Positions 10,178 to 47,032 of a stretch of 48,412 nucleotides of DNA are shown piece after piece. How positions within the stretch are numbered: position 1 is the stretch's first letter; each line of letters begins with the position of its first letter. Origin of the DNA: Candidatus Obscuribacterales bacterium (GTDB taxonomy: Bacteria; Cyanobacteriota; Vampirovibrionia; Obscuribacterales; Obscuribacteraceae); NCBI GenBank assembly GCA_020050685.1, contig JAGVKG010000063.1, positions 1-48,412 of the forward strand. The letters are read 5' to 3'. The position numbers and the translations under genes are program-made. The notes under the pieces are model-generated. The model searched no databases. It was given only the letters and a program-made list of their open reading frames with translations, and was not told the origin of the DNA.

Positions 10178-10206
10178 TTGGATAAACGCATCGTTTGTTT
10201 TATGAT
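10178..10206 (+). promoter_or_regulatory. Sigma-70-type promoter of pilin gene 1
   Basis: TTGGAT (10178-10183), a 17-nt spacer and TATGAT (10201-10206), about 45 nt upstream of the chosen ATG at 10252. The hexamers are close to consensus and the spacing is ideal for a housekeeping-type sigma factor. Confidence 0.65.
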
Positions 10207-10238
10207 ACAGGCGGTTTGGAAGAACGAGTCAATAATAT

Positions 10239-10244
10239 GGAGGA
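10239..10244 (+). promoter_or_regulatory. Shine-Dalgarno site deciding the pilin 1 start
   Basis: GGAGGA lies 7 nt before ATG 10252. An upstream in-frame ATG at 10237 overlaps this site and has no ribosome-binding site of its own, so 10252 is preferred. Confidence 0.7.
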
Positions 10245-10251
10245 CGCGGCA

Positions 10252-10785
10252 ATGATAAATAAGATGTTGAAGTCGAGAAAGCAGAAAGGCTTCACACTGG
10301 TTGAACTCTTGGTTGTTGTGGTTATTATTGGAATCTTGGCAGCTATTGCTCTGCCAAATTTCATATCTGCTCAAAGTAAAGCCAAGGAATCATCAGTGAA
10401 AGGCAATATGCGTACATCGCAAATTGCGGCTGAATCGTATGCTACAGATTACGGCGGTGCCTATCCTGCTACCGTAGGAGCAGCATATGAAAGCTATTTC
10501 CCAGGTGGTGGTAACGATGGAGCGACAGCAGGCAATCCTCTGACCAATCCGTTCACCAACAAAACAGGATTCCCACAAGCTGGTTCCGCTATGGCACCAA
10601 CAGATATCGTGACCAACAGAACAAAATCTGGTGTTGCGATAACTGGCGGAGATTCCGGTATCCAGTACAGCATTATCAACAGTGGTTCGACACAAGTTGG
10701 TTATGCCATCATGGGAGCAAAAGCCGATGGAACTGGTGTGTCTAGCACATCACCAAGTACAACATTGGTACTCTCCAACATGTAG
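10252..10785 (+). CDS. Type IV pilin/pseudopilin, copy 1
   Basis: A 177-residue prepilin, the structural subunit of a type IV pilus or related pseudopilus. A short basic leader (MINKMLKSRKQKG) is followed by the prepilin peptidase site G|FTLVELLVVVVIIGILAAIALPNF, including the Glu at mature position 5. The globular domain holds AESYATDYGG and a Gly/Ser/Thr-rich C-terminal half with DSGIQYS and GYAIMGAKADGTG. It has its own promoter (10178-10206) and terminator (10823-10848). The next gene is a clear paralogue. Its processing enzyme is probably the prepilin peptidase encoded at 43380. Whether it is the major pilin or a minor one cannot be settled here. Confidence 0.9.
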   Translation: MINKMLKSRKQKGFTLVELLVVVVIIGILAAIALPNFISAQSKAKESSVKGNMRTSQIAAESYATDYGGAYPATVGAAYESYFPGGGNDGATAGNPLTNPFTNKTGFPQAGSAMAPTDIVTNRTKSGVAITGGDSGIQYSIINSGSTQVGYAIMGAKADGTGVSSTSPSTTLVLSNM

Positions 10786-10822
10786 GTTAAATCAACCCGG
10801 GGCCCTCGGGGCGTGAAGCATC

Positions 10823-10848
10823 AAAGGGGGCAGCGATTGCCCCCTTTT
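10823..10848 (+). terminator. Rho-independent terminator after pilin 1
   Basis: Stem AAGGGGGCA/TGCCCCCTT with the 5-nt loop GCGAT is followed by TTTT, about 40 nt after the pilin 1 stop. It should isolate pilin 1 as a monocistronic message. Confidence 0.85.
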
Positions 10849-10879
10849 GCCTTTGGTACTAGCCCCGGGAAAACGTATC

Positions 10880-10907
10880 TTTTCAACCGGCAGACCTGTA
10901 GTATAAT
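10880..10907 (+). promoter_or_regulatory. Candidate promoter of pilin gene 2
   Basis: TTTTCA (10880-10885), a 16-nt spacer and a perfect TATAAT (10902-10907). It would leave a leader of about 130 nt before ATG 11046, containing a GAAAGC/GCTTTC inverted repeat around 10940-10963. Confidence 0.5.
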
Positions 10908-11045
10908 TAAGGATAGTTTATGTCGGGGGACCGTTAGATAGAAAGCCGAGTAGGGCAGCTTTCAGATACTGGGGATAGCGGGCTGGGCGGTTAACGATTC
11001 TCGAGTGGACTCTAACCACAGAGAAGAAGGATTCCTCGGATTAAA

Positions 11046-11699
11046 ATGGGCGGGCGACTATACTCTGAAGAGTTTTTCAACAAGCCAAAGCAAGACCATA
11101 GGGTGCATAGCTTTGGGTATTGTTTTGTGTACACCAAGCGCGCCAAAAAAAATGCCAATCACTTTACCAGTTCTAATAGAAAGTACAAGACAAATCTTGG
11201 ATTTACACTAGTTGAACTTTTGGTTGTGGTGCTTGTGATTGGGGTTCTGGCAGCAATTGCTTTGCCAAACTTCATTGCTGCTCAACAGAAGGCTAGGGAA
11301 ACGGCTGTAAGAGGAAACATGCGTACTGCCCAAGTGGCAGCCGAATCGTATGCTACAGATTATGGCGGCCTTTACCCGAGTAGCGTGGATGCGGCATACG
11401 AAAGCTATTTTCCTGGTGGTGGCTCAGATGGTGCGACTGCCGGCAACCCACTGGTTAATCCCTTTAACAGCAAGACAGGTTTCCCCAATACCGGATCAGC
11501 CATGACTTCATCGGACATCACTACCATTCGTGGCTCATCTGGCAGCGCGGTTTCCGGTGGGGATTCAGGTGTTCAATATAGTAGCGTTACAGGCGGTGCT
11601 ACGTCCGGCTATGCCATCTTGGGAGCCAAGGCTGATGGTACTGCTGTTTCCGGTACCAACGTAACCAATACTCTTGTTCTTTCAAACTTTGGCAGTTAA
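11046..11699 (+). CDS. Type IV pilin/pseudopilin, copy 2
   Basis: A paralogue of the preceding pilin: GFTLVELLVVVLVIGVLAAI, then AESYATDYGG, ESYFPGGGSDGATAGNP, DSGVQYS and GYAILGAKADGTA align along the whole mature domain. From ATG 11046 it has 217 residues with an unusually long leader of about 51 residues before the cleavage glycine. In-frame GTG codons further in would give a shorter leader, but none has a clear ribosome-binding site; an AAGGA lies about 14 nt before ATG 11046. The different leader and separate promoter suggest independent expression from copy 1. Confidence 0.85.
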   Translation: MGGRLYSEEFFNKPKQDHRVHSFGYCFVYTKRAKKNANHFTSSNRKYKTNLGFTLVELLVVVLVIGVLAAIALPNFIAAQQKARETAVRGNMRTAQVAAESYATDYGGLYPSSVDAAYESYFPGGGSDGATAGNPLVNPFNSKTGFPNTGSAMTSSDITTIRGSSGSAVSGGDSGVQYSSVTGGATSGYAILGAKADGTAVSGTNVTNTLVLSNFGS

Positions 11700-11821
11700 G
11701 CAAGCTTTGAATGGTTGCTTCGTGCCTCATATATGGCATCATTGATGTTTGGCTGTGAGCTAGCTAGATAGGGTGACATCATTTTGAGTGATAGAAAACT
11801 TGATACTGAGGAGCAAAACAG

Positions 11822-12577
11822 GTGGTGCCCGTCATAAGAAAGCAAACGATGTGGCAGATTTTTGCGCTTTTGGCTTTGGCTCTCATAATTCAGGCAAGTC
11901 ATGCTCGACTGATTGCTAAGCTCGGCATTAAGCAAGCCGAACCAACCCTCGTGGCGCTGCCAAACAAGGAAGTGGCCAGGCTTATGAGCCTCGGCAATCA
12001 GCAATTTGTTGCTGATTGTTACTGGCTTTCTTTTATCCAGTACCTGGGAGATGTAAAAGTTCGGCGCCTCGATCATTACCGTTCTTGTTACAACTTTTTG
12101 GATTTAATTACTTATTTGGACCCCCATTTTGTGCAGCCGTATTGGTTTGCGGCATTTGCGGTAGGAGCCGATCAAGGACGTCCGGATCTGGCAGCCAAAT
12201 TGATTAATCGCGGGCTGGCTTTTAATCAAAACAATTGGTATTTGCCTTGGATTGCCGGATTTAATCAGTATTTGTTTGCTCATGATGATAAGGCGGCAGC
12301 AAATTTTTACCGCATGGCTGCAAAGTATCCTGATGCGCCAGAGTGGCTGGAGCGACAAGCCGTAGTTCTCGAATCTAAAGTGCCAACTCTAATCAAAGAA
12401 ATTCGCACCTGGGGACTGATTTATGTAAACTCCAAAGATCCTATGGTGAAAGAAGCAGCCCGTAAACGTTTAGTTTCGCTCTGGCTTACCGTCTTTCATC
12501 AGGCACCGAATTTGCAAGTGAAGCGCGGTGCTGCCGATATGCTCAAAGGTTTGGGAGTGATTGTTGACGTAAAATAA
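11822..12577 (+). CDS. Membrane-anchored TPR-like protein
   Basis: A 251-residue protein with one N-terminal hydrophobic segment (about residues 10-26) followed by helical TPR-like repeats, for example LITYLDPHFVQPYWFAAFA and AAKLINRGLAFNQNNWYLPW. GAGGAG lies 8 nt before a GTG GTG pair at 11822. No catalytic motif is visible. It lies 53 nt upstream of the large membrane/spermidine-synthase-like/TPR gene and probably forms an operon with it, suggesting a shared envelope role. Confidence 0.75.
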   Translation: MVPVIRKQTMWQIFALLALALIIQASHARLIAKLGIKQAEPTLVALPNKEVARLMSLGNQQFVADCYWLSFIQYLGDVKVRRLDHYRSCYNFLDLITYLDPHFVQPYWFAAFAVGADQGRPDLAAKLINRGLAFNQNNWYLPWIAGFNQYLFAHDDKAAANFYRMAAKYPDAPEWLERQAVVLESKVPTLIKEIRTWGLIYVNSKDPMVKEAARKRLVSLWLTVFHQAPNLQVKRGAADMLKGLGVIVDVK

Positions 12578-12630
12578 GAACGACTGCCGAAAACTGATAA
12601 CAGAAGTTATATAAAGGACAAAAGCAACTC

Positions 12631-15600
12631 ATGGATAAAAATCCAAAGCGCAAAGGGAAAATCGGTCAGAATCCCAAAACCGCTTTGCCTCTTGGTACTA
12701 AATCTCTAACAGCTTTTGTTTTTGTCGCACTTTTGTTTTTGGCCTCGGGATTCTCCAGCTTGATTTATCAAGTGGTCTGGACGAGATTCCTTGTTTTGGT
12801 TTTTGGCTCGACAACCTTTGCCACATCAACGGTGTTGTCGGTCTTTATGGGCGGCTTGGCGCTGGGCTCTTTTGTTGCCGGCAAAATGGTGGACAAAATC
12901 AAACGCCCATTTTTGCTCTACGGAATTTTGGAAGGCATAATTGGAATTTGGGCCTTAGTTGTCCCTTTTCTTTTTGAGGCAGCCGTACCGCTATATAAAG
13001 TAATTTGGCTCAATTTCCATTTGGACCTTTTGTCTTTTGGTTTATTGCGTTTTATTGTTGCTTGTGCAATTTTGATTTTGCCGACCACTTGCATGGGTGC
13101 GACGTTACCGCTTCTGGCCAAATTTGTTACCACTAGTTTGAAATTTGTCGGCGAACGTGTTGGTACCTTGTATGCGACCAACACTTTGGGAGCCGTGTTT
13201 GGCGCGGGCTTGGCTGGTTTTATTCTTTTGCCGGTGTTTGGTTTGTATGTGACGACTATACTGGCCGCTTTGATCAATTTGGCATTATTGGCCGCAGTAG
13301 TTATCGGTGGACCAAAAATTGAACAAAAGTTTGAAAACAAGGCGCAAGAAAAAGGGCAAACCGATAAAGAATACGAGACAGCTGGCGGGATGTCTTCAGT
13401 TAGCAAAGTCTTGCTTGTAGTGACGGCCTGTTTTGCCACATCCGGGGCTGCGGCTATGGTCTATGAAGTAGCATGGACCCGTACGCTTTTAATGGTGATA
13501 GGATCGTCCACCTTTGCCTTTAGTGTCATGCTCGTGACATTCTTGACAGGAATTTTTTGTGGCAGTTATCTTTGTGCCCGCGTTGTGGACAAAGCAAAAG
13601 AGCCATTGATTTGGTTTGCCGTGTTGGAATTTTTGATTTGTCTTTTGAGTTTTGTTTCTATGCACCACTTCAATTATTTGCCTTGGTTCAACTTGGTGGC
13701 AAATGCGCAAGTGCCGAAAGACCCAAATATTGCTTTGATAATTCGCTTTTTATTGGCAGGCAGTTGTTTGTTGCCGCTGACAGTTTGCTTGGGGGCAATA
13801 TTTCCGATTGTGGTCAAGACTTGCGCGAGAGATCTGGCCTTAATTGGCCGCTCAGTCGGTAACTTGTATTCGGCAAATACACTGGGGGCAATCGTCGGTT
13901 CGTTTCTGGCTGGATTTGTTTTGGTGCCGGCAATGGGAGTGGAGAAGACACTTTTGGTGGCAGCGGCCGTCAATTTGGTAATTGGCGTTGTCTTGCTTGC
14001 CATAACCCCTAACATCAAGGTTTCCATCAAAGCACTATCTGTGGTGGCAACCTGTGTGGTGGCAGCTTGGCTTTGTTTTGGTCCAGGAATCTGGGACAAA
14101 TTGATCTTGTTAAACGCGCAAGCCGCTCGGCGTAATCTCTCGACAATGCCACTTTTCTTCAATTCTTTTGAGCAATGGCGCAATGCCCAACATGACACGG
14201 ATAGATTATTGTTCTGGCAAGACGGATTATCATCGACAGTCGGTGTTCGGCAACAAAAGTTCTCCGGCTTCCGTTCCTTGGTGACAAACGGTCACGTCGA
14301 TGCCTCCGATGCCGGTGACATGACGACACAAATTCTCCTTTCTGCTTATCCGCTTTTGTGGAAACCGGAAGCGCAAGATGTTTGTGTGATTGGTTGGGGC
14401 TCCGGGGTAACAATTGGCGTGGCTGGCACGCTCAAGCCCAAAGAAATTGTGGCTGTAGAACTTGAACCGGCAGTTATTGAGGCTGGTAAGTTTTTCCATC
14501 ATGTTAATCATCACCCAGATGAGAATCCCATTGTCAAAAAGGAAATTAACGATGGTCGTAATTTCTTATTGGTCACGGATAAGAAATTCGATGTGATTAT
14601 TTCTGAGCCATCCAATCCCTGGCAAGCCGGAGTTTGCAATCTTTTCACCAAGGAATATTTTGAAATTTGTCACCGAGCACTCAAGCCAGGCGGTGTATTT
14701 TCTTTGTGGCTTCAGACACTGGAAATTTCACCGGAAAATGTACGCGGCATATTGGCTTCATTGCATGACGTTTTCCCCTATGTCATGGTCATGCGCGCAG
14801 ACATGGGTGATGTAACAGTTTTGGCATCAGATCAAAACTTGAAATTTGATTTGGCAAAATCTGCCAAGCTTTTCAAAAACGAGGAATTCCTCAGCGATTT
14901 GAAGCGAGTCAAAATAGATACACCGGAAAAGGTTATGGCCAGAATTGCCATGGCTCCCGACGGTATTGAGGGGCTAATCGGCAATTCACCACGTAACGTT
15001 GATGACACTAACCGCTTGGAATACTCAGTTGGTAAAACATATGAGCATAGTTTTTATCCGGAAGAAAACATCAAATTGCTCAAGGAAAATGTCGGGCATC
15101 CGGCAGAATATATCGAATTTGCTGAGACAGATGCAAAAGCCCGATCCGAACAATTGGCCAGTGTGGCTAAGGAAGCCTTGAGTGATAGAAGTTTGGGACC
15201 GGCAAGTGTCTGGACAGACAAAGCCCTAGCCTTGGTACCACAACCAAACACTCCTAAGGAAGTGTTGAGAGTGGCAGGCATAGTCAAATATGAGCAAGGC
15301 AAGAAGGACGAAGCTTATAAATTCTGGGAAAGAGCAATTGAACTTTATCCGAATGACAAAGACACTCTGATGACCCGAGGTCTGACAGCCTTGCAAAATG
15401 GTGATACCGATGCGGCACGCGCGGATTTTATGAGAGTGATCAAAATTGAGCCAGGCAATTTGGATGCCCGCTTTGATATGGCTTGTACATTTTCCAGTCT
15501 TTATTGCCATGTTCCTGTTGGAGGTGGCGGCAAGAACGAATTGTTCCCTAAAGCATACGCCGACTCAGTACTTAAATATGCGGGCGACTTGACCAAGAAT

Positions 15601-16398
15601 GCCGATTTTGTCCGCAAGCATCCGGATGTCTTGGTAATTGCCGGTATCGCTAATTATCAATTGAATAATTTGAAACCAGCAACTGAGCTTTTGGAGTCCT
15701 ATCTCAAACTTGAGCCGCATTCGGTCGCAGCCCAGCGCTTGCTTGGCTCTATTTGTCTGGAAAGTGGGCGCATGCGAGATGCATCTGCTTGGTGGTATGT
15801 TTCGTTCTTAGAAGGCCAGAAGGCGGCCAATCGCATGTTGCTTGATATTTCTGAATTGATGCGGGCCGGCAAGTCACAAGCAGCTTTAGATGGCTTGACA
15901 AAGTTAGTGGAATTTTGGCCAGGCGAGCAAATGACTTACAACTTTTTGACACAGCTAAGTAAGGAAAGCAGCCCGCAAGGAAAGCAAGCCGGAGAAATTC
16001 TTGCCAGTGTGCAGGGTATTTCTAACAGCACGAAGGATGCTGTCGGCACAAAAGCAATTTTTGACGAGAGAGCGCAAGCCTCAAAAATGTATGTACAAGG
16101 AAAAGGACGAGAAGGTGCGACACTCTGGTATGTTTCGTTTTTAGCCGGACAGAAAGAAGCCGAACCATTGTTCAAAAAGGCTAAAGAAGAAATGAAAGAG
16201 AAGAATTATCCTGAAGTGGTCAAGACACTTTCGCAGGCAGTAGAACTTTGGCCGGCAAATTTTGACGCTTATCTTGCTCTGTCCGACATTGCCAAGTCCG
16301 AGAACCCGGCAAAATCAGAGGCCTCTGCTCTACTTTCTTCCATGAATATGGTAAAACAAGCTTTGCCGAAGCCCACTGATCCAACAAACACGCGTTAA
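12631..16398 (+). CDS. Membrane/spermidine synthase-like/TPR fusion protein
   Basis: A 1255-residue three-part protein. Residues 1 to about 500 form a polytopic membrane domain with two similar halves, each opening with SGF/GAAxxxYQVVWTR-type motifs (residues about 40-50 and 273-283). Residues about 520-740 form a Rossmann methyltransferase/spermidine synthase-like domain with VCVIGWGSGVT, AVELEPAVIEAG, NDGRNFL and EPSNPW. Residues from about 870 to the end carry TPR-like repeats such as YKFWERAIELYPNDKDTL. The EPSNPW motif replaces the catalytic DxxD-type motif of true SpeE, so the substrate is probably not putrescine, and the reaction is unknown. Fused membrane-spermidine synthase proteins are a known widespread family; the long TPR tail is the less usual part. 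The MBL gene follows by 36 nt. Confidence 0.8.
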   Translation: MDKNPKRKGKIGQNPKTALPLGTKSLTAFVFVALLFLASGFSSLIYQVVWTRFLVLVFGSTTFATSTVLSVFMGGLALGSFVAGKMVDKIKRPFLLYGILEGIIGIWALVVPFLFEAAVPLYKVIWLNFHLDLLSFGLLRFIVACAILILPTTCMGATLPLLAKFVTTSLKFVGERVGTLYATNTLGAVFGAGLAGFILLPVFGLYVTTILAALINLALLAAVVIGGPKIEQKFENKAQEKGQTDKEYETAGGMSSVSKVLLVVTACFATSGAAAMVYEVAWTRTLLMVIGSSTFAFSVMLVTFLTGIFCGSYLCARVVDKAKEPLIWFAVLEFLICLLSFVSMHHFNYLPWFNLVANAQVPKDPNIALIIRFLLAGSCLLPLTVCLGAIFPIVVKTCARDLALIGRSVGNLYSANTLGAIVGSFLAGFVLVPAMGVEKTLLVAAAVNLVIGVVLLAITPNIKVSIKALSVVATCVVAAWLCFGPGIWDKLILLNAQAARRNLSTMPLFFNSFEQWRNAQHDTDRLLFWQDGLSSTVGVRQQKFSGFRSLVTNGHVDASDAGDMTTQILLSAYPLLWKPEAQDVCVIGWGSGVTIGVAGTLKPKEIVAVELEPAVIEAGKFFHHVNHHPDENPIVKKEINDGRNFLLVTDKKFDVIISEPSNPWQAGVCNLFTKEYFEICHRALKPGGVFSLWLQTLEISPENVRGILASLHDVFPYVMVMRADMGDVTVLASDQNLKFDLAKSAKLFKNEEFLSDLKRVKIDTPEKVMARIAMAPDGIEGLIGNSPRNVDDTNRLEYSVGKTYEHSFYPEENIKLLKENVGHPAEYIEFAETDAKARSEQLASVAKEALSDRSLGPASVWTDKALALVPQPNTPKEVLRVAGIVKYEQGKKDEAYKFWERAIELYPNDKDTLMTRGLTALQNGDTDAARADFMRVIKIEPGNLDARFDMACTFSSLYCHVPVGGGGKNELFPKAYADSVLKYAGDLTKNADFVRKHPDVLVIAGIANYQLNNLKPATELLESYLKLEPHSVAAQRLLGSICLESGRMRDASAWWYVSFLEGQKAANRMLLDISELMRAGKSQAALDGLTKLVEFWPGEQMTYNFLTQLSKESSPQGKQAGEILASVQGISNSTKDAVGTKAIFDERAQASKMYVQGKGREGATLWYVSFLAGQKEAEPLFKKAKEEMKEKNYPEVVKTLSQAVELWPANFDAYLALSDIAKSENPAKSEASALLSSMNMVKQALPKPTDPTNTR

Positions 16399-16434
16399 GC
16401 TTAAGATAGGCGAGTAAGTGAGAACTGAAACGTT

Positions 16435-17334
16435 ATGAAAAAATCAATGTCCTTGCAGTTTGGTAAATTCCGCCTCTCGGTAATCAGGGAGTGTACATTC
16501 AAATTGGATGGCGGTGCCATGTTTGGTGTGGTGCCAAAACCTTTGTGGGACAGAGTTAGTCCTGCTGATGAACTGAATCGCATTTTGCTTGCTTGTAATT
16601 TGCTTTTGATTGAAACGCCAAATAAGCGTGTGCTGGTGGAAACCGGCATGGGCTCTCGCTGGAGCGAGCAAGATAAGGAAAGGTATGAAATCAAACCTTT
16701 AGTGCAAGACGACAATGTTTTGGCAGCCGTCGGCTTAAAAAACGAAGATATTGATTGTGTGATCATTTCGCACATGCACTTTGATCATCTTGGCGGGGCA
16801 ACACGATTTGAAAATGGCCAATTGGTGCCAACATTTCCGCGGGCAAAATACTACATGCAAAAGGGAGAATGGGACTTTGCGCACAAAGCTAATGCACGTG
16901 CCAAAGCCAGCTATCGTCCCGATGACTTTTTGCCCTTAAAAGAACACGGTGTTTTGGAAATTATCGAGGGTGATCAGGAAGTTGTCCCCGGCATTTGGGC
17001 AAGAGTGACTGGCGGGCACACAAGCCACCACCAAGTTGTTGCCTTTGAATCAGAAGGCAATCACGGTGTCTACTTCGCTGACATCATTCCGACAATTGCC
17101 CATCTTAGTCCACCTTGGGTAATGGGTTATGACCATTTTCCGCTGACAAGTTGTGATGCTAAATCAACTTGGTTAACGCGCGCGGCTCAAGAAGATTGGC
17201 TAGTGGTTTTTGATCACGAGATGGGCATTCCCTGGGGTCATGTAAAACTAGACGCCAAAGGCAAATTTACATTTGATCCATTAGCAGAAGATGCCAAACT
17301 TTTTGAATCTGCTAAAAGGACAATTGCTAAATAG
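16435..17334 (+). CDS. Metallo-beta-lactamase fold hydrolase
   Basis: A 299-residue MBL-fold enzyme with the zinc motif HMHFDH (H113, H115, D117, H118), a later GGHTSHH supplying the next metal ligand, FADIIPT with the bridging Asp, and FDHE near the C-terminus. The overall layout resembles N-acyl homoserine lactonase-like and related broad hydrolases; the actual substrate is not predictable. There is no signal peptide, so it is probably cytosolic. It follows the large fusion gene by 36 nt and converges on the mgtC-like gene. Confidence 0.85.
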   Translation: MKKSMSLQFGKFRLSVIRECTFKLDGGAMFGVVPKPLWDRVSPADELNRILLACNLLLIETPNKRVLVETGMGSRWSEQDKERYEIKPLVQDDNVLAAVGLKNEDIDCVIISHMHFDHLGGATRFENGQLVPTFPRAKYYMQKGEWDFAHKANARAKASYRPDDFLPLKEHGVLEIIEGDQEVVPGIWARVTGGHTSHHQVVAFESEGNHGVYFADIIPTIAHLSPPWVMGYDHFPLTSCDAKSTWLTRAAQEDWLVVFDHEMGIPWGHVKLDAKGKFTFDPLAEDAKLFESAKRTIAK

Positions 17335-17338
17335 TCAA

Positions 17339-17370
17339 AGAGTCATGAATTGGAGTCACGACTTGACTCT
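17339..17370. terminator. Possible shared hairpin between convergent genes
   Basis: AGAGTCA (17339-17345) and TGACTCT (17364-17370) form a 7-bp inverted repeat between the convergent MBL and MgtC genes. The loop is 18 nt and neither side has a T run, so termination is uncertain. Confidence 0.25.
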
Positions 17371-18034
17371 AGAGCCCACCCTTTTCGCTGAGGACTTGGA
17401 CGGAGATGATGTCCGGGTTGTCGACGACGCTGGTAACTAGTTGGTCCAATTCTGCCCAGCTCAAGTCGGCAAAGTGCATGTTCATTTCCGTGCGGTCTTG
17501 GTGCTTGACGATGGAATTCAAACGCACGTTGGGAAACAGTTGTCTAACTTGTTGTACTTTGTCTTTGGGGCAGGAGATTTTTAGATCTTTTCCCGGTAAT
17601 TCTTCTTGCGGGAAAAGATGTTCGGCTAAACGCAAGCCGATGACAATCATCAAAGTAGAAATAATCGCAAAGGCATGAAAGCCAAGACCACAAGCAATAC
17701 CGACGCCGGCAGCGAAAAATATTGTTGCGGCTGTGGTCATCACGCCGACACCGCGGCTGATGATTACGCCAGCACCAATGAAGCCAATTCCAGCCAGGAT
17801 TTGCCCGGCTAGTCGTGTAGCGTCACCGGAGCCGACAGCACCATGCAACAAATCGGCACCGCAAGCCGATATTAGACATGAGCCGGCAGCCAGGATCATA
17901 TGCGTGCGCACACCGGCAATTGGTTGCTTAGTGGTACGCTCCATACCGAGAACCGCGCCGAGGAAAAATGCCAATAAAAGCTTGGCACAAAACCACATGA
18001 TCCAGGTCAAGTTACCATTCATCATTGGGTCCAT
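17369..18034 (-). CDS. MgtC/SapB family membrane protein
   Basis: A 221-residue protein with four or five hydrophobic segments in the first 140 residues and a soluble C-terminal domain. The MgtC signature is visible: LGAVLGMERTTKQPIAGVRTHMILAAG with the conserved Glu/Arg, GxGFIGAGVIIS and GVMTTAATIFFAAGVGIACG. In other bacteria MgtC helps adaptation to low magnesium, partly by inhibiting the F1Fo ATP synthase; here the role is inferred. The gene starts 6 nt after the rlmN stop and is probably cotranscribed with it. ATG 18025 is an alternative start. Confidence 0.85.
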   Translation of the reverse strand: MDPMMNGNLTWIMWFCAKLLLAFFLGAVLGMERTTKQPIAGVRTHMILAAGSCLISACGADLLHGAVGSGDATRLAGQILAGIGFIGAGVIISRGVGVMTTAATIFFAAGVGIACGLGFHAFAIISTLMIVIGLRLAEHLFPQEELPGKDLKISCPKDKVQQVRQLFPNVRLNSIVKHQDRTEMNMHFADLSWAELDQLVTSVVDNPDIISVQVLSEKGGL

Positions 18035-18040
18035 AAATCT

Positions 18041-19135
18041 CTACTGCTTTCCTTGTTGATAAGCGTTGTGTAGTTGTCCGCAGGCCGCATCAATGTCGGT
18101 GCCGCGTTCAAGGCGAATTGTTACTGTTTTGCCCGTCTTTTCCGCCAAGCGTCTAAAGCGTTGTTGCGCATCTATCGATGGTCGCTTGTATGGCACGACA
18201 CCTTCGGGAGACAAAGTGGGATTGTAAGGAATGAGATTGACCATGCAGGGTAGATCGGCTACCCAGTATGCCAGTTCTCTTCCTTGTTCTTCCGTATCTG
18301 TTACTCCAGCCAGAAGCACATATTCAATGGTGATGCGTCGGCCGCATTTGTCCGCATAGTCCTGCAATGCTTTCATCAGTTCAGGCATTTTCCACTTGCG
18401 GCTGATGGGTACAATTTCTTCTCTGGTTTTTGCATCGGGTGCATGCAAGGAAAGTGCCAAAGTAATCTGCAAGCGTTCTTCGGCAAGACGATTAATTCCC
18501 GGCACAATACCGGAAGTGGAAACGGTGATGTGCCTTTGTCCGATGCCAACGGAATACATCAAAGTTTTAATTGAGGCAATTACTTCCTCTGCGTTTAAGA
18601 GAGGCTCACCTTGACCCATGTAGACAACATTGGCAACGCGCTGTCCTGATTCTCTCTGAATGGCCATCACCTGGTCGACAATTTCTTGACTTGTTAAATT
18701 GCGTGTGAAGCCAAGAAATCCGGTGGCGCAGAAGGTGCAGCCGACAGCACAGCCGACTTGGGAAGATAGGCAAGCAGTCAAGTTGGGGCGATCGGCAAAG
18801 CTCATTAGCACTGCTTCGACCAGCTTGCCATCAGGTAATGCAAAAAGATACTTACGAGTGCCGTCCTTGGATACTTGTAAGTGAGCAAGCTTGAGATTGC
18901 TTATCTGCGCCACTTGATCGAGCTTTTTGCGCAAGCCGGCAGATAGGTCCGTCATCTCCTCAAACGTCGTTGCACCCTTGGCATAAATCCAGGTATGCAG
19001 CTGTTTGGCGCGGTAGGCGGGCAAGCCCAATTGACGCACGAATGCCTCGAGCTCTGGCAGGGAAAGCCCAGACAGGGCGATTTTCTCCGCTTTGCTTGCA
19101 GGTAGATTTTCTTCAGTTGTTTTTTCTTCAGCCAT
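18041..19135 (-). CDS. rlmN: Dual-specificity RNA methyltransferase RlmN
   Basis: A radical SAM enzyme that methylates C2 of A2503 in 23S rRNA and A37 in some tRNAs. The iron-sulfur motif CxxxCxxC is C129, C133 and C136 in GCAVGCTFCATGF. The two cysteines of the methylation mechanism are present as C122 (seven residues upstream, as in the E. coli enzyme) and C352 in TDIDAACGQL. VVYMGQGEPLLN and the HAPDAKTREEIVPISRKW region also match the family. The 364-residue length is normal. The short Glu/Lys-rich N-terminus (MAEEKTTEEN) is probably disordered. Confidence 0.95.
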   Translation of the reverse strand: MAEEKTTEENLPASKAEKIALSGLSLPELEAFVRQLGLPAYRAKQLHTWIYAKGATTFEEMTDLSAGLRKKLDQVAQISNLKLAHLQVSKDGTRKYLFALPDGKLVEAVLMSFADRPNLTACLSSQVGCAVGCTFCATGFLGFTRNLTSQEIVDQVMAIQRESGQRVANVVYMGQGEPLLNAEEVIASIKTLMYSVGIGQRHITVSTSGIVPGINRLAEERLQITLALSLHAPDAKTREEIVPISRKWKMPELMKALQDYADKCGRRITIEYVLLAGVTDTEEQGRELAYWVADLPCMVNLIPYNPTLSPEGVVPYKRPSIDAQQRFRRLAEKTGKTVTIRLERGTDIDAACGQLHNAYQQGKQ

Positions 19136-19181
19136 CTTGATAACACCAAATCACTGACAAGCATAAACTAAAAGAGTAATG

Positions 19182-19213
19182 TTGTCATTGGTACTTTAGT
19201 AAAATGCTAAAAT
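19182..19213 (+). promoter_or_regulatory. Possible secA promoter
   Basis: An extended -10 like TGCTAAAAT (19205-19213) lies about 100 nt upstream of the secA ATG; the nearest -35-like TTGTCA (19182-19187) is 20 nt away, longer than usual. Confidence 0.3.
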
Positions 19214-19295
19214 TGATACCTTGTGGGCACTGCCGGTAGGCAATTTATTCCTCGCCCCCGATATTTTGGTTTTGGTAATTGATTTTGGTTGTGCC

Positions 19296-19301
19296 AAGGA
19301 G
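19296..19301 (+). promoter_or_regulatory. Shine-Dalgarno site deciding the secA start
   Basis: AAGGAG lies 9 nt before ATG 19311. The frame is open 90 nt further upstream, but the extra residues (hydrophobic, not SecA-like) and the strong site show that 19311 is the start. Confidence 0.8.
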
Positions 19302-19310
19302 AGAGTCGTA

Positions 19311-22300
19311 ATGTCTGAGACCTGGGAGGAAATATCAAGGCGCTGGGTTAAGCAGCTCTTTGGTGATACCAATGAGAAAAGAGTAAAGCTTTTGCAGGAC
19401 TATGTGACAAAAGCTAATTCGTTCGAGCCGGAGATTTCTGCTCTCAGTGACGATGACCTCAAGGGAAAGACTGGGCATTTTAAGCGAATTATCGACAATG
19501 CCTTGTCTGGTGTCGAAGATGTTCGCCTTTTGCCTCCTGATGCGCCGAAGATGCCTGGGCAGATGCGCACGCAGCACGACAAGGTTCTAGCCGGAGTGCT
19601 TGAAGAACTTTTGCCTGAAGCATTTGCCGTTGTCAGAGAAGTTGGTAAGCGCACGCTGAACATGCGGCACTTTGATGTGCAGCTAATGGGTGGCGCGGCT
19701 TTGCACTTTAACAAGATTGCCGAAATGCGTACCGGTGAAGGTAAGACTTTGGTGGCAACTTTGCCGGCTTACCTGAACGCTTTGTCCGGACGCGGTGTGC
19801 ACGTGGTGACAGTCAACGATTATTTGGCTCGCCGTGACGCTGAGTGGATGGGAGCGATTTACAAATATTTAGGACTTTCGGTTGGTTTGATTTATTCGCA
19901 CCAGCCGGATACGGAAAAGTATCAAGCTTATCGCGCCGATATTGCTTATGGCACAAACCACGAATTTGGTTTTGACTACTTGCGCGATAACATGGCGACG
20001 TCGCTCGAGAATCTTGTGCAACGTCCTTACTACTATGCGATTGTCGACGAAGTAGACAACATTTTGATTGACGAAGCTAGAACGCCTTTGATTATTTCTG
20101 GTTTCCCTTCTGAATCGTTTGTCGAGCTTTACAAACGCATGTCGCAGTTGGCGCCACTTTTAGAGCGTGGTCGCGATAAGGACGATGAGGAGTGCGATTA
20201 CTTTGTTGATGAGAAAGCGCACAGCGTACTTTTGACTGAGCGTGGCATCGACAATGCAGAAAGAATGCTGGGAGTGAAAGACCTTTATGAGGTCAACCTC
20301 AATTTGGCGCATCAATTGACTCAAGCCTTGAAAGCCAAAGAGCTTTATAAGATTGACACCGATTATGTGATTCGTCCGAATGAAGAAGGCAAGTTGGAAG
20401 TTGTCATCGTCGATGAATTCACCGGACGGATGATGCTCGGCCGCCGCTGGAGCGAAGGTTTGCACCAAGCAGTGGAAGCAAAAGAAAATGTGCCGATTCA
20501 AGAAGAGACGATGACTTATGCATCGATCACTTATCAAAACTTGTTCCGTCTCTATCCTAAATTGTCTGGTATGACTGGAACGGCTATGACTGAAGCATCT
20601 GAGTTCCATAAGATTTACAACTTGGATGTGGTGGCAATTCCGACCAATCGTTCCAATATTAGAATTGATAATGCCGACATTATTTACAAAAATGAGCCGC
20701 AAAAGTTCTATTCGGTTGTGGAAGAAATTGTCGACATGTACGAGCTTGGGCGTCCAGTTCTTGTGGGAACGACAAGCATCGAGAAATCGGAAATTGTCGA
20801 TGAGCTTTTGAGCAAGCCTCATAAAATGGGTGAGTATCTCAACGTTAAGATCAAAAAGACCGTGGATGTAATTAAGCGCAATAAGTTTAGCGGACCACAG
20901 ATTGATGCCTTGATCAAGATTTTCGAAAGACCCGGCGCCATTGATTTGGAGCACCTGGAGAAAACTGTCAATCAAATTGAAAAGGACTTTCCCAAAGCCG
21001 ATGAATTGCTTGAACGCTGCTATTCGCTTTTGAAAACAGCCAAAATTGTGGCAGTGATTCGCCGCGGTATCGGTCATAGCGTCCTCAATGCTAAGCATCA
21101 CGAGAAAGAAGCGATGATTATTGCTCAAGCCGGTAAAAAGGGTGCTGTGACAATTGCCACCAACATGGCCGGTCGTGGTACTGACATTTTGCTTGGTGGT
21201 AATGCTGAGTATCAGGCTAAAGAAAAGCTCAAGAAAGAAGGGCTTGAACCAGAGGATCCGGCCTATCAAGAACGCTACAACGAGATCTTTAAGAAAGCCA
21301 AGCAAGAAACAGATGCTGAGCACGATGAGGTTGTGAATCTCGGCGGACTGCATATCATTGGTACCGAACGCCACGAATCAAGACGTATTGATAATCAGTT
21401 GCGTGGTCGTGCTGCTCGTCAGGGTGATCCGGGAACGACGCGATTCTTCTTGTCGCTGGAAGACAATTTGATGCGTATCTTCGGTGGTGAAAAAATTACT
21501 GGCTTGATGAATCTCCTGAAAGTTGATGAGGAGATGCCAATTGAATCAGGTCTGGTGACCAAGTCAATTGAAGGCGCTCAAAAGAAAGTTGAGTCATATC
21601 ACTTCGATACACGTAAACACGTTTTGGAATATGATGATGTTTTGAATACACAGCGTGAAGTGATTTACCGCGAGCGTCGCCGTATTCTTGAACGGGCCGA
21701 ACTCAAGCAATCAATTGCCTCCATGTTGGAAGAGCATCTCGATATCCTTTTAGGAAATTACATTGATCCAGAGACTCCGGCAGAGATGTGGGAAGAGGAA
21801 TCGCTGCCCAATCTCATGGCAGTCTTGGTCAATGATATTCCGGTGCTCGGAGATTTGAAGATTGAAGAGCTGGCAGGATTGTCCTACGACGAGCTGCGTG
21901 GCAAACTGGTTGAATCAATTAATTTAGCTTACGAAGTGAGAGAGCAACACATAGGTGTTCAGACCATGCGTGAGCTTGAGCGGCAAATATTGCTCAGAAC
22001 AATTGATACTAAGTGGGTTGACTACTTGCACAATATCGATATCTTGCGCCAAGGTATTCACTTGCGTGGCTATGGACAACGTGATCCGTTGCAAGAATAT
22101 AAGCGTGAAGCTTTTGAAATGTTCAATCAACTTCTACGCTCAATTCAGCATGAATCAATTCAGCTTCTTTTCAGGGCGCAGCCAATTGTTATGGACATGG
22201 AGCAATTGCACGAATTGATGCCTGATGATGATGAGAGCGATGACGACGATGATGACATTAGTGAAGATGATTCATCAAATGGTTCTAACTTAAGCGCTCT

Positions 22301-22343
22301 TGAAACATCTAAGGGAGAACCAAATCCTCCAGTCACCACTTAA
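19311..22343 (+). CDS. secA: Preprotein translocase ATPase SecA
   Basis: A cytosolic/peripheral ATPase that drives unfolded precursors through SecYEG. Motifs in order: MRTGEGKTL (Walker A), VTVNDYLARRDAEW, GTNHEFGFDYLRDNM, VDEVDNILIDEARTPLIISG, PPXD region, GTTSIEKSE, NMAGRGTDILLGGN and RGRAARQGDPG. From ATG 19311 it has 1010 residues, longer than the usual 800-900. Two oddities: about 84 extra residues (502-585) sit in the second nucleotide-binding fold between KSEIVDELLS and GIGHSVLNAK; and the C-terminus is a highly acidic tail (MPDDDESDDDDDDISEDD) with no Cys-rich zinc-binding motif for SecB/ribosome contact. tsaB follows by 14 nt. Confidence 0.97.
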   Translation: MSETWEEISRRWVKQLFGDTNEKRVKLLQDYVTKANSFEPEISALSDDDLKGKTGHFKRIIDNALSGVEDVRLLPPDAPKMPGQMRTQHDKVLAGVLEELLPEAFAVVREVGKRTLNMRHFDVQLMGGAALHFNKIAEMRTGEGKTLVATLPAYLNALSGRGVHVVTVNDYLARRDAEWMGAIYKYLGLSVGLIYSHQPDTEKYQAYRADIAYGTNHEFGFDYLRDNMATSLENLVQRPYYYAIVDEVDNILIDEARTPLIISGFPSESFVELYKRMSQLAPLLERGRDKDDEECDYFVDEKAHSVLLTERGIDNAERMLGVKDLYEVNLNLAHQLTQALKAKELYKIDTDYVIRPNEEGKLEVVIVDEFTGRMMLGRRWSEGLHQAVEAKENVPIQEETMTYASITYQNLFRLYPKLSGMTGTAMTEASEFHKIYNLDVVAIPTNRSNIRIDNADIIYKNEPQKFYSVVEEIVDMYELGRPVLVGTTSIEKSEIVDELLSKPHKMGEYLNVKIKKTVDVIKRNKFSGPQIDALIKIFERPGAIDLEHLEKTVNQIEKDFPKADELLERCYSLLKTAKIVAVIRRGIGHSVLNAKHHEKEAMIIAQAGKKGAVTIATNMAGRGTDILLGGNAEYQAKEKLKKEGLEPEDPAYQERYNEIFKKAKQETDAEHDEVVNLGGLHIIGTERHESRRIDNQLRGRAARQGDPGTTRFFLSLEDNLMRIFGGEKITGLMNLLKVDEEMPIESGLVTKSIEGAQKKVESYHFDTRKHVLEYDDVLNTQREVIYRERRRILERAELKQSIASMLEEHLDILLGNYIDPETPAEMWEEESLPNLMAVLVNDIPVLGDLKIEELAGLSYDELRGKLVESINLAYEVREQHIGVQTMRELERQILLRTIDTKWVDYLHNIDILRQGIHLRGYGQRDPLQEYKREAFEMFNQLLRSIQHESIQLLFRAQPIVMDMEQLHELMPDDDESDDDDDDISEDDSSNGSNLSALETSKGEPNPPVTT

Positions 22344-42579: not shown

Positions 42580-43383
42580 ATGTTTTCTGGTCTTGGTGCA
42601 ATTGCACTGAATACATTTCGCGAAACCGTGCGTGATCGTATTTTGTATGCATTTGTTCTTTTTGCCTTTCTTTTTACGCTGGCAGGAATAATTTTGGGCA
42701 GTCTTTCGATTGGTCAAAACGAACGCATCTTGCAAGATATGGGTTTGGCAGTAATTTCCATGATTGGTGGCATTATTGCCATATTTCTCGGCACAAACCT
42801 TGTGTATAAAGAAATAGACAGACGCACCATTTACCTCATATTGACAAAGCCAATTGCTCGCTGGCAATTTGTCCTGGGGAAATATTTAGGACTTTCATTT
42901 TGTATTTTTGTGGTTACAGGTCTGATGGGTATTTTTCTCGTTGGACTTTTGGCTGTTTTTGGCGCTGAAGTGAAAGCGCTTGTCTTGGTTGCTCAAGCTA
43001 TTGGCTTGATTTATTTGGAGCTGCTTTTTGTCATTGCCGTGGCCACCTTTTTCTCCACCTTTGCCACACCACTAATGAGTGTTTTGTTTACTTTGGCAAT
43101 TTGGCTGATTGGTCATATGAGTCAGGCATTGCTTGAGCTTTCCAAGCTTTCGCAAGCAAATACATCCGACGCCGCATGTATCCCCTCGTGCACCAAACTT
43201 GGTCAGGTAATGTATTGGATTGTGCCGGATTTGGCCAAGTTGACACAGGTACGTTATGAACTAATTTCGCTTCGACCGGTAGATTGCGAAATCCTCTTTT
43301 ATCTAATTACCTATATACTGGCGTATATTATTTTTCTTTTGCTGTTGTCGACTTTGGTAACTGAACAAAGAGAGTTTTCTTGA
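42580..43383 (+). CDS. ABC-2 type exporter permease
   Basis: A 267-residue membrane protein with six hydrophobic segments: an N-terminal amphipathic TFRETVRDRILYAFVLFAFL, EIDRRTIYLILTKPI after the second segment (a hallmark of ABC-2 permeases), then four further segments ending in LAYIIFLLLLSTLV. It forms the membrane half of an exporter with the preceding ATPase. The cargo is unknown. A TTGA or two-base junction joins it to the prepilin peptidase gene, so the exporter is in one operon with the pilus genes. Confidence 0.88.
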   Translation: MFSGLGAIALNTFRETVRDRILYAFVLFAFLFTLAGIILGSLSIGQNERILQDMGLAVISMIGGIIAIFLGTNLVYKEIDRRTIYLILTKPIARWQFVLGKYLGLSFCIFVVTGLMGIFLVGLLAVFGAEVKALVLVAQAIGLIYLELLFVIAVATFFSTFATPLMSVLFTLAIWLIGHMSQALLELSKLSQANTSDAACIPSCTKLGQVMYWIVPDLAKLTQVRYELISLRPVDCEILFYLITYILAYIIFLLLLSTLVTEQREFS

Positions 43384-44381
43384 GCATGCCACCACTTCCA
43401 GATCTGACAATATACGTTTTGGTATTTGTGGTTGGAGCAGTAGTCGGCAGCTTTTTAAATGTATTGGCTCTTAGAACTTTAGAGGGGCGTTCTGTTATTT
43501 GGCCGCCATCTTCCTGCCCGGCTTGCGGAAAGCGCATCGCCTTTCAAGACAATATTCCAATCCTTTCCTTTTTCCTTTTGCGCGGGAAGTGTCGCGCTTG
43601 CCAAGCGGTAATTTCTTGGCAATACCCTTTGGTAGAGCTGGTGACGGCAATTTTGGCCGTGGTTTTATTCTTTCGCTTTGGGCTAAGTTGGGAATTTGCC
43701 GGTATGTGCATACTGGGCTCTTGTCTAATTGCAGTTACAGTGACGGATTTACGCGAAAAACTAATTCCGCATGATATCACCTATCCGACAATCGTTTTGG
43801 GGTTGATTTATTCTGCTTTTGTCCGCAATGATTTAATGGGCGCTTTGGCTGGTATTGGTGCAAGCTATTTGATTTTTGATTTCTTAGCGCACTATGGCTT
43901 AGTAATTTACCAAAAGCTCAAACCGGAATCCGTTGGTGAAGACATCGACGTTATGGGTGGTGGCGATGCAGTATTATCGGCGGTGATTGCCGCTTGGCTG
44001 GGTTGGCAAAGATTGGTTTTGGCCTTGGCTGTCGGTTTTCTGATTGGCACCATTATCGGCATGATTCTCTTGGTTAGAGAAGTGATGCAAGCGGGGCTTT
44101 TGGCTGATGCGCTGAAGAAGGCCGTGATTGGTGCGGCAGGTGGTGCTGTCCTCATGGCAGTCACGGCACTTGTGATTAACCTGGCAACCGGCCCATTAAA
44201 CGTCAACATTTCCTGGCTGGTTTTTTCCGGCTTGGGTGCTGTCTGCGGGGGGCTTCTAGGGTTTGTCCTAGTTGGCACTCAGGTCTCCAAACCTTTTCCC
44301 TTCGGCCCGGCTCTTGCCTTAGGCGCCCTAGTGGCAATTTTTATAGATCCTGTTGCTACCTTCTTATCTGGTGGGGCATAA
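43380..44381 (+). CDS. pilD: Prepilin peptidase (leader peptidase/N-methyltransferase)
   Basis: An inner-membrane aspartyl protease that removes leaders from type IV prepilins and N-methylates the new N-terminus. The cytosolic zinc module has two CxxC pairs (SSCPACGKR and GKCRACQAV); the protease aspartates are in VTVTDLREKLIPHD and MGGGDAVLS. About nine hydrophobic segments give 333 residues, longer than the usual 230-290 owing to extra C-terminal segments. Start: TTG 43380 overlaps the permease stop (TTGA) with GAGAG 5 nt upstream; ATG 43386 is a close alternative. It probably processes the pilins at 10252 and 11046. Confidence 0.93.
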   Translation: MSMPPLPDLTIYVLVFVVGAVVGSFLNVLALRTLEGRSVIWPPSSCPACGKRIAFQDNIPILSFFLLRGKCRACQAVISWQYPLVELVTAILAVVLFFRFGLSWEFAGMCILGSCLIAVTVTDLREKLIPHDITYPTIVLGLIYSAFVRNDLMGALAGIGASYLIFDFLAHYGLVIYQKLKPESVGEDIDVMGGGDAVLSAVIAAWLGWQRLVLALAVGFLIGTIIGMILLVREVMQAGLLADALKKAVIGAAGGAVLMAVTALVINLATGPLNVNISWLVFSGLGAVCGGLLGFVLVGTQVSKPFPFGPALALGALVAIFIDPVATFLSGGA

Positions 44382-44430
44382 TAAAAAGGCAGCGTGAAGT
44401 GTGGGAATAATGAGATACAAGGCAAGTGTC

Positions 44431-44520
44431 AAACCAGCGAGCGAAGGATTGCGAGGAGCAGTCTGCAGCGAGCGCCAAAAGAGCGGAGCAATTGGTGCTC
44501 CGCACCAACTGCGGAGCGTA
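44431..44520 (-). repeat. Dispersed structured repeat, copy R7
   Basis: On the minus strand: TACGCTCCGCAG, hairpin TTGGTGC-gga-GCACCAA (44492-44508), CTCCGCTC, GGCGCTC, GACTGC-tcctc-GCAATCC and CCTTCGCTCGCTGG. Reversed relative to the pilus operon, it ends 6 nt before the pilMN start codon. Confidence 0.75.
44513..44516 (+). promoter_or_regulatory. GGAG of repeat R7 as putative pilMN ribosome-binding site
   Basis: GGAG, the complement of the conserved CTCC head of R7, lies 10 nt before ATG 44527 and is the only Shine-Dalgarno-like site there. The hairpin at 44492-44508 is just upstream. Confidence 0.5.
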
Positions 44521-44526
44521 TAGATA

Positions 44527-46302: not shown

Positions 46303-46317
46303 GCGCCGAGCAATTGA
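46288..46317 (+). repeat. 15-bp tandem duplication at the pilMN stop
   Basis: GCGCCGAGCAATTGA occurs twice without a gap (46288-46302 and 46303-46317). The first copy encodes the last four residues and stop of pilMN; the second repeats them in frame after the stop, then GAGAGGAAAGAG leads to pilO. Confidence 0.9.
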
Positions 46318-46327
46318 GAGGAAAGAG

Positions 46328-47032
46328 ATGAGCTTAAGAGACAAAATTTTAGTTTGCTTGGTGCCATTCTTATTGGCGGCTATTCTCTGGTTTGGTTTGG
46401 CTAGTCAGGCATATGTAGACTGGCAAGAAAAAGACAAACAAATTGAAGAGAAGAATCAAGAGCAAACCCAATTGAAAACCAAGCTGGCCAACTTAGCCAG
46501 AGTGGATAAGGAAAGAGCAGCGCTGAATCTGGATATCGAAGCTCTTCGATCTGCTGTTCCGAAAAGTCCGGACTTGGATATTTTGCTGATTGATTTGGAA
46601 AAAATGTGTTTGGATTCAAGCATGGATTTAGTGTCGGTAGATAAGCCGGATGCTAAGTCTTTGTCAGATACTCAAGCGCAAGACGCGGAAGCAAAGGAAC
46701 TGGCAAGTGCATCTGGCAAGCTGAGTGTTGGTGCAAAAAGCAAGGATGTTGCTTTGGGTGCAAAGGCAGACAAATCAAAAACGCCAGGCGGAAAGAATGA
46801 AGTTAAGAGTGCGGAAGAAGAAGCCGGGCTCAACAAACAAGTCTTGAGTGTAACCGTGATTGGTGATTATCCCTCCTTGATTGAATTGATGAAGAAGTTG
46901 CAAGGCTATGAAAGAGTGACCGGAATAGGAAAGATCACCATCGGCTTGCCTGATGCAAAGGACAAAGGAAAAGGAGATCCGTCCAAGCAGCTAAAAATTA
47001 GTTTTCTCCTAACGGCGTATTATCTTCCGTAG
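46328..47032 (+). CDS. pilO: Type IV pilus assembly protein PilO
   Basis: An inner-membrane alignment-complex protein that pairs with PilN. The N-terminal membrane helix (residues about 7-27), a coiled coil from about 30 to 75 (EEKNQEQTQLKTKLANLARV) and a C-terminal ferredoxin-like domain (VLSVTVIGDYPSLIELMKKL, ITIGLPDAKDKGKGD) follow the PilO order. A Lys/Ala-rich charged linker of about 60 residues between them (residues about 115-165) is an extra. The 234-residue length is usual. GAGGAAAG precedes the ATG. The pilP-like gene starts 8 nt after the stop. Confidence 0.9.
   Translation: MSLRDKILVCLVPFLLAAILWFGLASQAYVDWQEKDKQIEEKNQEQTQLKTKLANLARVDKERAALNLDIEALRSAVPKSPDLDILLIDLEKMCLDSSMDLVSVDKPDAKSLSDTQAQDAEAKELASASGKLSVGAKSKDVALGAKADKSKTPGGKNEVKSAEEEAGLNKQVLSVTVIGDYPSLIELMKKLQGYERVTGIGKITIGLPDAKDKGKGDPSKQLKISFLLTAYYLP

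Follow-up and report, generated by a model that had tools for sequence, protein, structure and literature searches.

Proteins that join a major facilitator superfamily (MFS) domain to a spermidine synthase-like (SpdSyn) domain are catalogued as family NF037959 ("fused MFS/spermidine synthase"), and our literature search turned up no article in which a function of the family had been put to the test. Among the closest described proteins is the fungal NHMT (AN4663), which combines seven transmembrane helices (7TM) with a SpdSyn-like domain and methylates the N-terminal histidine of secreted enzymes, i.e., lytic polysaccharide monooxygenases (PMC10349129, available portion). According to the same portion of that article, spermidine synthases require D or E in GxG(D/E)G for decarboxylated S-adenosylmethionine (SAM), NHMT is without this acid (whereby its authors argue against a spermidine synthase), and the supply of SAM to the endoplasmic reticulum (ER) is raised as a question (PMC10349129). 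Here we describe a gene of the fused kind at positions 12631–16398 (+ strand) of a 48,412-nucleotide stretch, hereafter the window (contig JAGVKG010000063.1, assembly GCA_020050685.1, Candidatus Obscuribacterales bacterium). We tentatively read its product, at somewhat less than an even chance, as a membrane-embedded, extracytoplasmic SAM-type transferase that would modify exported proteins, possibly pilins, and not as a spermidine synthase. The fusion itself is already catalogued; new here are the predicted extracytoplasmic position of the catalytic domain and, in some genera, a pilin locus, which together suggest an exported protein as the target.

The 1255-residue product of this single open reading frame (ORF) comprises a 12-helix MFS domain (residues 23–461, positions 12697–14013), a 13th hydrophobic helix (residues 464–483, 14020–14079), a SpeE-type SAM-fold domain (residues 495–823, 14113–15099) and a tetratricopeptide repeat (TPR) tail (residues 835–1255, 15133–16395), all on the + strand. 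Pfam recognized MFS_1 (best stretch 35–367), Spermine_synth at residues 569–721 (61.4 bits versus a cut-off of 22.9) and several TPR families spanning residues ~863–1096. As the protein scores above the NF037959 cut-off (114.4 bits versus 40), the fusion is of a known kind; the cut-offs of the enzyme models TIGR00417 (SpeE, 79.2 versus 249.55 bits) and NF002956/PRK03612 (112.9 versus 472 bits) were missed. The PRK03612/NF002956 type, to which the match is weak, also places N-terminal helices before a SpeE domain. A sequence-only reading of the window had proposed a fusion of a two-half membrane transporter-like domain, a SpeE-like domain and TPRs, and had named structure prediction as a check. 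The model (residues 1–1120, the TPR tail being covered to that point; built from 30 sequences, mean pLDDT 86.8, pTM 0.81) agrees with it together with Pfam and NCBIfam, splitting cleanly into two MFS halves, one extra hydrophobic helix and a SpeE fold. Residues 23–461 form a complete 12-transmembrane (TM) MFS fold by VIA-align (SLC37A4, 9w1r: Z 34.2, root-mean-square deviation (rmsd) 3.2, 375 aligned; SotB, VMAT and NorA among the next rows listed), and residues 495–804 match 1uir_B (Z 27.6, rmsd 3.3, 285 aligned), with further SpeE-type matches to 6qmm (Z 27.2) and 1jq3_A (over residues 495–823) and E. coli SpeE (3o4f) as the top Foldseek row. Fold likeness alone demonstrates neither transport nor catalysis. 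In alignment A1, i.e., 18 sequences (the window protein plus 17 from 14 loci) picked by similarity and not by the EPSNPW motif discussed below, Spermine_synth is present in 18/18, TPR_2 in 16/18 and MFS_1 in 13/18 at E ≤ 0.001, a recurrence that argues against a chance architecture.

The catalytic domain shares with SpeE its fold and the residues E610, E612, D641 and G642 (kept in 18/18 A1 sequences), which correspond to nucleoside-binding positions; it differs from SpeE in that the residues for polyamine and decarboxylated SAM are replaced and membrane and TPR parts are added. In the alignment to E. coli SpeE (3o4f, E 4e-14), IISDCTDP becomes IISEPSNP, so that both members of the SDCTDP Asp pair are replaced, the first by E659 (still acidic) and the second by N662. 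GWGSG (residues 588–592, 14392–14406) stands where SpeE has GGGDG, its acid being replaced by S591, a change that the sequence-only reading did not mention, and the Tyr of YHE is T566, at a position that varies among relatives. With the GxG(D/E)G acid, the YHE Tyr and the DxxDP Asp pair all replaced, the intact polyamine site which that reading had named as evidence against itself was not found in the sequence. Its claim of an altered catalytic motif stands insofar as EPSNPW (residues 659–664, 14605–14622) replaces the acidic motif of SpeE, and falls short in that the change is not peculiar to this gene: PSNPWQ is invariant in A1 (18/18), residue 659 being E in 17 sequences and Q in one. A lone degenerate copy is ruled out by this conservation. 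Residue 591 in A1 is S in 16 sequences and C or T in one each, never D or E (0/18); the residues around the site (S658, P660–Q665, G667–L671, W693, Q695 and E698) are invariant. Among 31 close homologues picked by the motif [EQ]PSNPW, window gene included, the glycine-rich motif reads GWGSG in 26, GWGTG in three, and GFGSG and GWGCG in one each, again without D or E (0/31).

Wider membrane-fused relatives are also without this acid, with the exception of L206, a PRK03612-type protein; within our comparison table GGGDG is carried by the two SpeE yardsticks, by one other protein of the same genome (C53, see below) and by L206. NF037959-type relatives without the acid come from Cupriavidus, Sinorhizobium, Caballeronia, Aliivibrio, Comamonadaceae and two Bacillota, and the region of residue 659 varies among the wider relatives: class II has QPAEPW, QPSDPW and similar (Gln at 659), EPPPPS occupies the place of EPSNPW in Cupriavidus, Sinorhizobium, Caballeronia and Aliivibrio, and position 659 is D in the Comamonadaceae and the two Bacillota. 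Compared with NF037959, whose MFS plus SpdSyn architecture it shares, the window protein adds the long TPR tail, EPSNPW, the site-loop cysteine C669 and the pilin locus. C669 (14635–14637, in the loop GVCNL) is Cys in 18/18 A1 sequences and Val in wider relatives such as L176–L178 (L176 being the homologue in Cupriavidus metallidurans CH34); residues 666–669 of this loop have a model confidence below 50, the lowest stretch of the SpeE-fold domain.

In the genome to which the window belongs (4.2 Mb, 98.7% complete), PF01564 matches at seven places (E ≤ 0.001), and at six of these the score exceeds the cut-off. One of the seven, the C53 protein (L050 4724–7456, a 910-residue frame), carries GGGDG, YHES and SDLTVP and lies one gene from speD, whereas the rest look like membrane proteins and carry GWGSG, GFGAG, GYGSG, GAGTG (twice) and GSGGG. 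There are two speD genes, one near the C53 protein and one on C35. Spermidine synthesis in this genome is explicable without the window protein. Since the acid is absent in 18/18 sequences and a separate GGGDG protein is encoded near speD, the fused protein is probably not a spermidine synthase, and the site residues and missed model cut-offs, together with that separate protein, led us to reject ordinary spermidine synthesis. The C53 frame also has a TM helix later in the sequence and a part rich in glycine, and frames of 823–969 residues occur at the match to its SpeE part in several relatives; the gene between it and speD is GNAT-like by eye. The speD gene on C35 (L051 9281–14821) lies near an agmatinase-like gene (by reading), a deoxyhypusine-synthase-family gene (PF01916) and a membrane gene with a 7+SpdSyn+7 layout.

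MFS proteins have both termini in the cytoplasm. This homology, the charge counts based on the model and the odd number of helices predict that the SpeE fold and the TPR tail are extracytoplasmic, which we consider likely. In loops defined from the model helix ends (variable central linker excluded), the density of K+R is 0.150 inside versus 0.031 outside, and it is higher inside in 26/26 rows. The best 19-residue Kyte-Doolittle mean of helix 13, taken within residues 462–488 (a wider stretch used at first overlapped helix 12 partly in some rows), is ≥1.35 in 25/26 full-length rows and 1.11 in one. Among the paralogues in the genome, we count 13 helices ahead of the catalytic domain in two and a 7+SpdSyn+7 layout in three, after adjustments by eye: a borderline 14th segment (1.35) of C11 was set aside, a sub-cut-off helix of C4 was added, and segments within the catalytic domain of the 7+SpdSyn+7 proteins were set aside as core strands. 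Thirteen helices precede the domain in the Cupriavidus, Sinorhizobium, Caballeronia and Bradyrhizobium relatives and seven in Rossellomorea and Cytobacillus. On the other side of the balance are the Aliivibrio (11) and Comamonadaceae (10) relatives, an earlier and cruder loop definition that gave 0.100 inside versus 0.097 outside (inside higher in 15/26 rows), and a count with a fixed threshold over 61 proteins, only 35 of which had exactly 13 helices (12 in six, 14 in four, 11 in three, the remaining 13 being fragments or other layouts). Because a cut-off on hydropathy overlooks some helices and divides others, odd parity is supported, not proven.

The same enzyme might instead keep its catalytic domain in the cytoplasm, with helix 464–483 not crossing the membrane and cytosolic SAM being used at the inner face. 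In line with such an arrangement, SAM is cytosolic, the window protein has a Lys within this helix and positive charges after it, the hydropathy of the helix is weak in the one row mentioned, and the cruder charge count finds no inside/outside difference. Yet the helix is hydrophobic in all other rows, and a domain placed between the MFS halves gains an extra helix on each side (7+7), which would be needless for a cytoplasmic insertion. We regard a cytoplasmic domain as a real, though rather unlikely, possibility.

By description only, and in the text of the fungal study available, NHMT and the window protein have in common an odd-helix membrane domain and a SpdSyn-like domain in which the acid of GxG(D/E)G is missing. 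NHMT acts on secreted proteins, and a counterpart of this for the window protein is a proposal. They differ in that NHMT is a eukaryotic ER protein whose 7TM domain is reported as unique to filamentous fungi, with MFS and TPR parts unreported in the available text, whereas the window protein has a 12-TM MFS domain plus one helix. E610 and E612, both invariant (18/18), lie where a SAM-binding Glu like E340 of NHMT would be expected, a placement by expectation and not by alignment. In our proposal, the MFS domain, whose 12 helices begin with a cytoplasmic N terminus, and helix 13 would put the SpeE fold and TPR tail beyond the cytoplasmic membrane, on its outer face. There an exported protein would be bound by the TPRs, and the SpeE fold would transfer a group onto it, most likely (by analogy with NHMT) a methyl from SAM. 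The MFS part may supply the donor, remove the product or merely anchor the enzyme. That the enzyme acts on an exported protein has, in our judgment, close to an even chance.

Owing to their shared locus with the enzyme, pilins are named as candidate substrates, although we consider them fairly unlikely to be the actual ones. Upstream of the fused gene lie an LCP gene, a pair of type IV pilin-like genes (10252–10785, +, N_methyl PF07963 42.3 bits from 10243, ORF from 10195 with the start chosen from sequence; and 11046–11699, +, 28.3 bits) and a TPR-like gene (11822–12577, +). Only three PF07963 places were found in the whole genome, and two of them are those a short way upstream of the fused gene. 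The 251-residue product of the TPR-like gene is modelled as a long N-terminal hydrophobic helix followed by a helical solenoid; it has no Pfam match over cut-off (TPR_14, 19.6 versus 23.5 bits), and a fold search gave none at E ≤ 0.001, with weak TPR-type rows including BamD, MamA and PilF. The sequence-only reading had called this neighbour a membrane-anchored TPR gene, which is reasonable from the modelled helix and solenoid and, given such weak TPR matches, not proven. The TPR-like part of this neighbour could also be extracytoplasmic, but its hydrophobic helix is flanked by positive charges at both ends and may have either orientation. Homologues of this neighbour occur in 35/53 genomes of the order and 120/292 genomes drawn from the phylum, and 19 of 20 further TPR-like loci viewed have a pilin-like ORF directly upstream. 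Downstream of the fused gene are a metallo-beta-lactamase-fold gene (16435–17334, +, nearest NCBIfam the YtnP lactonase, 225.4 versus 425 bits) and MgtC-like, rlmN and secA genes, the last three named from translations. The pilin and TPR-like pair often precedes the metallo-beta-lactamase-fold gene, rlmN and secA (10195–22343 in the window), whether the fused enzyme is present or not. The opposite end of the window (43380–47032) encodes a prepilin peptidase, and also has a PilM+PilN-domain ORF with a PilO-like ORF (by eye) after it. The prepilin peptidase (43380–44381) has A24_N and peptidase domains; A24_N has a role in pilin N-methylation, and with both domains encoded the usual N-methylation of pilins is probably covered. 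Promoter and terminator scans gave results near chance, and PHROGs and phage searches returned weak matches only.

The fused enzyme is found at the pilin-TPR locus in nine genomes of six genera (the window, L054, L055, L056, L057, L060, L061, L063 and L132), with a pilin ORF visible in seven and a second enzyme copy nearby in five of the nine. Among the 31 close homologues, ten have a pilin within 6 kb (L076 weakly, on the opposite strand) and 13 a TPR-like gene at no more than 8 kb. In GTDB genomes, scanning by pattern gave 29 related loci; apart from one "uncultured bacterium", their labels are Candidatus Obscuribacterales, Obscuribacter or Melainabacteria (the order being part of the Cyanobacteriota/Melainabacteria group); MFS-SpdSyn proteins in general turned up in Melainabacteria, Pseudomonadota and Bacillota. 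In a midpoint-rooted tree of 27 sequences, pilin-TPR-linked copies fall on both sides of the first split, and well-supported branches force at least five changes of the linked label. The pilin-TPR locus may be old, with the enzyme joining it early and later being copied elsewhere and lost, a history that the tree does not prove.

Copies away from this locus have varied surroundings. The C11 paralogue (L048 6085–11422) lies 14 bases from a gene for a 985-residue Tad protein (PF13400) on the same strand. L049 and most of L181–L195 (QPAEPW/QPSDPW class; C26 class by eye) have nearby, as read from translations, the gene of a response regulator, of an SbcC-like ATPase or of both, and pilin-motif matches within the response regulators of L181, L183 and L184 are false. 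A rule that the enzyme always adjoins filament genes is ruled out both by most of these L181–L195 loci and by L196–L200 (C11 class by eye), which have different neighbours. On a Comamonadaceae plasmid (L204 3926–9521) the MFS-SpdSyn gene is annotated alongside genes for a peptidylprolyl isomerase, HupE/UreJ, a 2-oxoglutarate-Fe(II) (2OG-Fe(II)) oxygenase and a PCu(A)C copper chaperone, and the Geobacter "spermidine synthase" GSU2502 adjoins omcT and omcS, judging by locus number in the available part of the source (PMC10599522). These neighbours are leads that hint at other exported proteins as partners. The main text of a paper on Desulfuromonadales pilins does not mention spermidine, TPR or tetratricopeptide in the part available (PMC5174107).

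Several observations weigh against an extracytoplasmic transferase acting on exported proteins or pilins. The fused enzyme is missing from 19 of the 20 further pilin-TPR loci viewed, and L132, the exception, has no visible pilin; no pilin lies within 6 kb of 21 of the 31 close homologues, some of them on short contigs; and the other paralogues mostly adjoin SbcC-like and response-regulator genes. On the tree, the linked label clusters no more strongly than after shuffling (132/500 as low), an alignment judged by eye reveals no residue that separates pilins of loci having the enzyme from those of loci lacking it, and a diverged tandem copy (L055 5609–7603) reads NSGNPQ where EPSNPW is expected. 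L206, with a membrane part of ~7 helices (six at threshold, seven by eye), keeps GGGDG, YHE and VDFPDP, and since it pairs the membrane layout with an intact GGGDG, the layout alone is no sign of a methyltransferase. SAM is not known to occur in the periplasm, so that a donor route, as yet hypothetical, is needed.

The lactonase-like gene next downstream also speaks for another function, i.e., a transporter coupled to small-molecule or lipid modification, in which the SpeE fold would alter what the MFS domain moves. Along its entire length the MFS domain resembles transporters of drugs and metabolites (SLC37A4, SotB, VMAT and NorA), and some copies of the family have no filament or secretion neighbours. 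Against this, such fold likeness shows no transport, TPR tails usually bind protein, and the lactonase-like gene is not tied to the enzyme, as it also occurs at loci without it (L127, L129, L130 and others). The sequence-only reading had suggested modification of a lipid or exported molecule; the exported molecule remains plausible, and we found no evidence of a lipid. We view the coupled transporter as a minority option, comparable in weight to the cytoplasmic catalytic domain. A catalytically dead domain that senses SAM or a nucleoside and regulates the MFS or TPR part would fit the lost Asp pair of the SpeE motif, the low confidence of site-loop residues 666–669 and the Gln at position 659 in class II relatives, but it is improbable in view of the invariant residues surrounding the site in all A1 sequences. 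Least likely is a membrane aminopropyltransferase with a diverged site making polyamine at the cell surface, which has on its side the SpeE fold, the two speD genes, the joining of ~7 helices to an intact GGGDG in L206 and the precedent of surface spermidine that P. aeruginosa PA4773/PA4774 reportedly provide, and is disfavoured by the replaced acid, Tyr and both Asp and by scores far under the TIGR00417 and NF002956 models; in other branches, as L206 indicates, a SpeE fold that faces outward could serve to make polyamine at the surface.

Returning to the extracytoplasmic transferase, a catalytic domain outside the cytoplasm would raise the question of how SAM gets there. If the domain is outside and its polyamine site is lacking, the name "spermidine synthase" would be misleading for this branch of the family. 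One answer, which we think doubtful, is that in the MFS-SpdSyn class the MFS domain passes SAM, or some other adenosyl donor, through the membrane to an outside SpeE fold that modifies TPR-held exported proteins, here type IV pilins. If true, such proteins would constitute a bacterial counterpart of the fungal NHMT and a way of carrying SAM chemistry beyond the cytoplasm.

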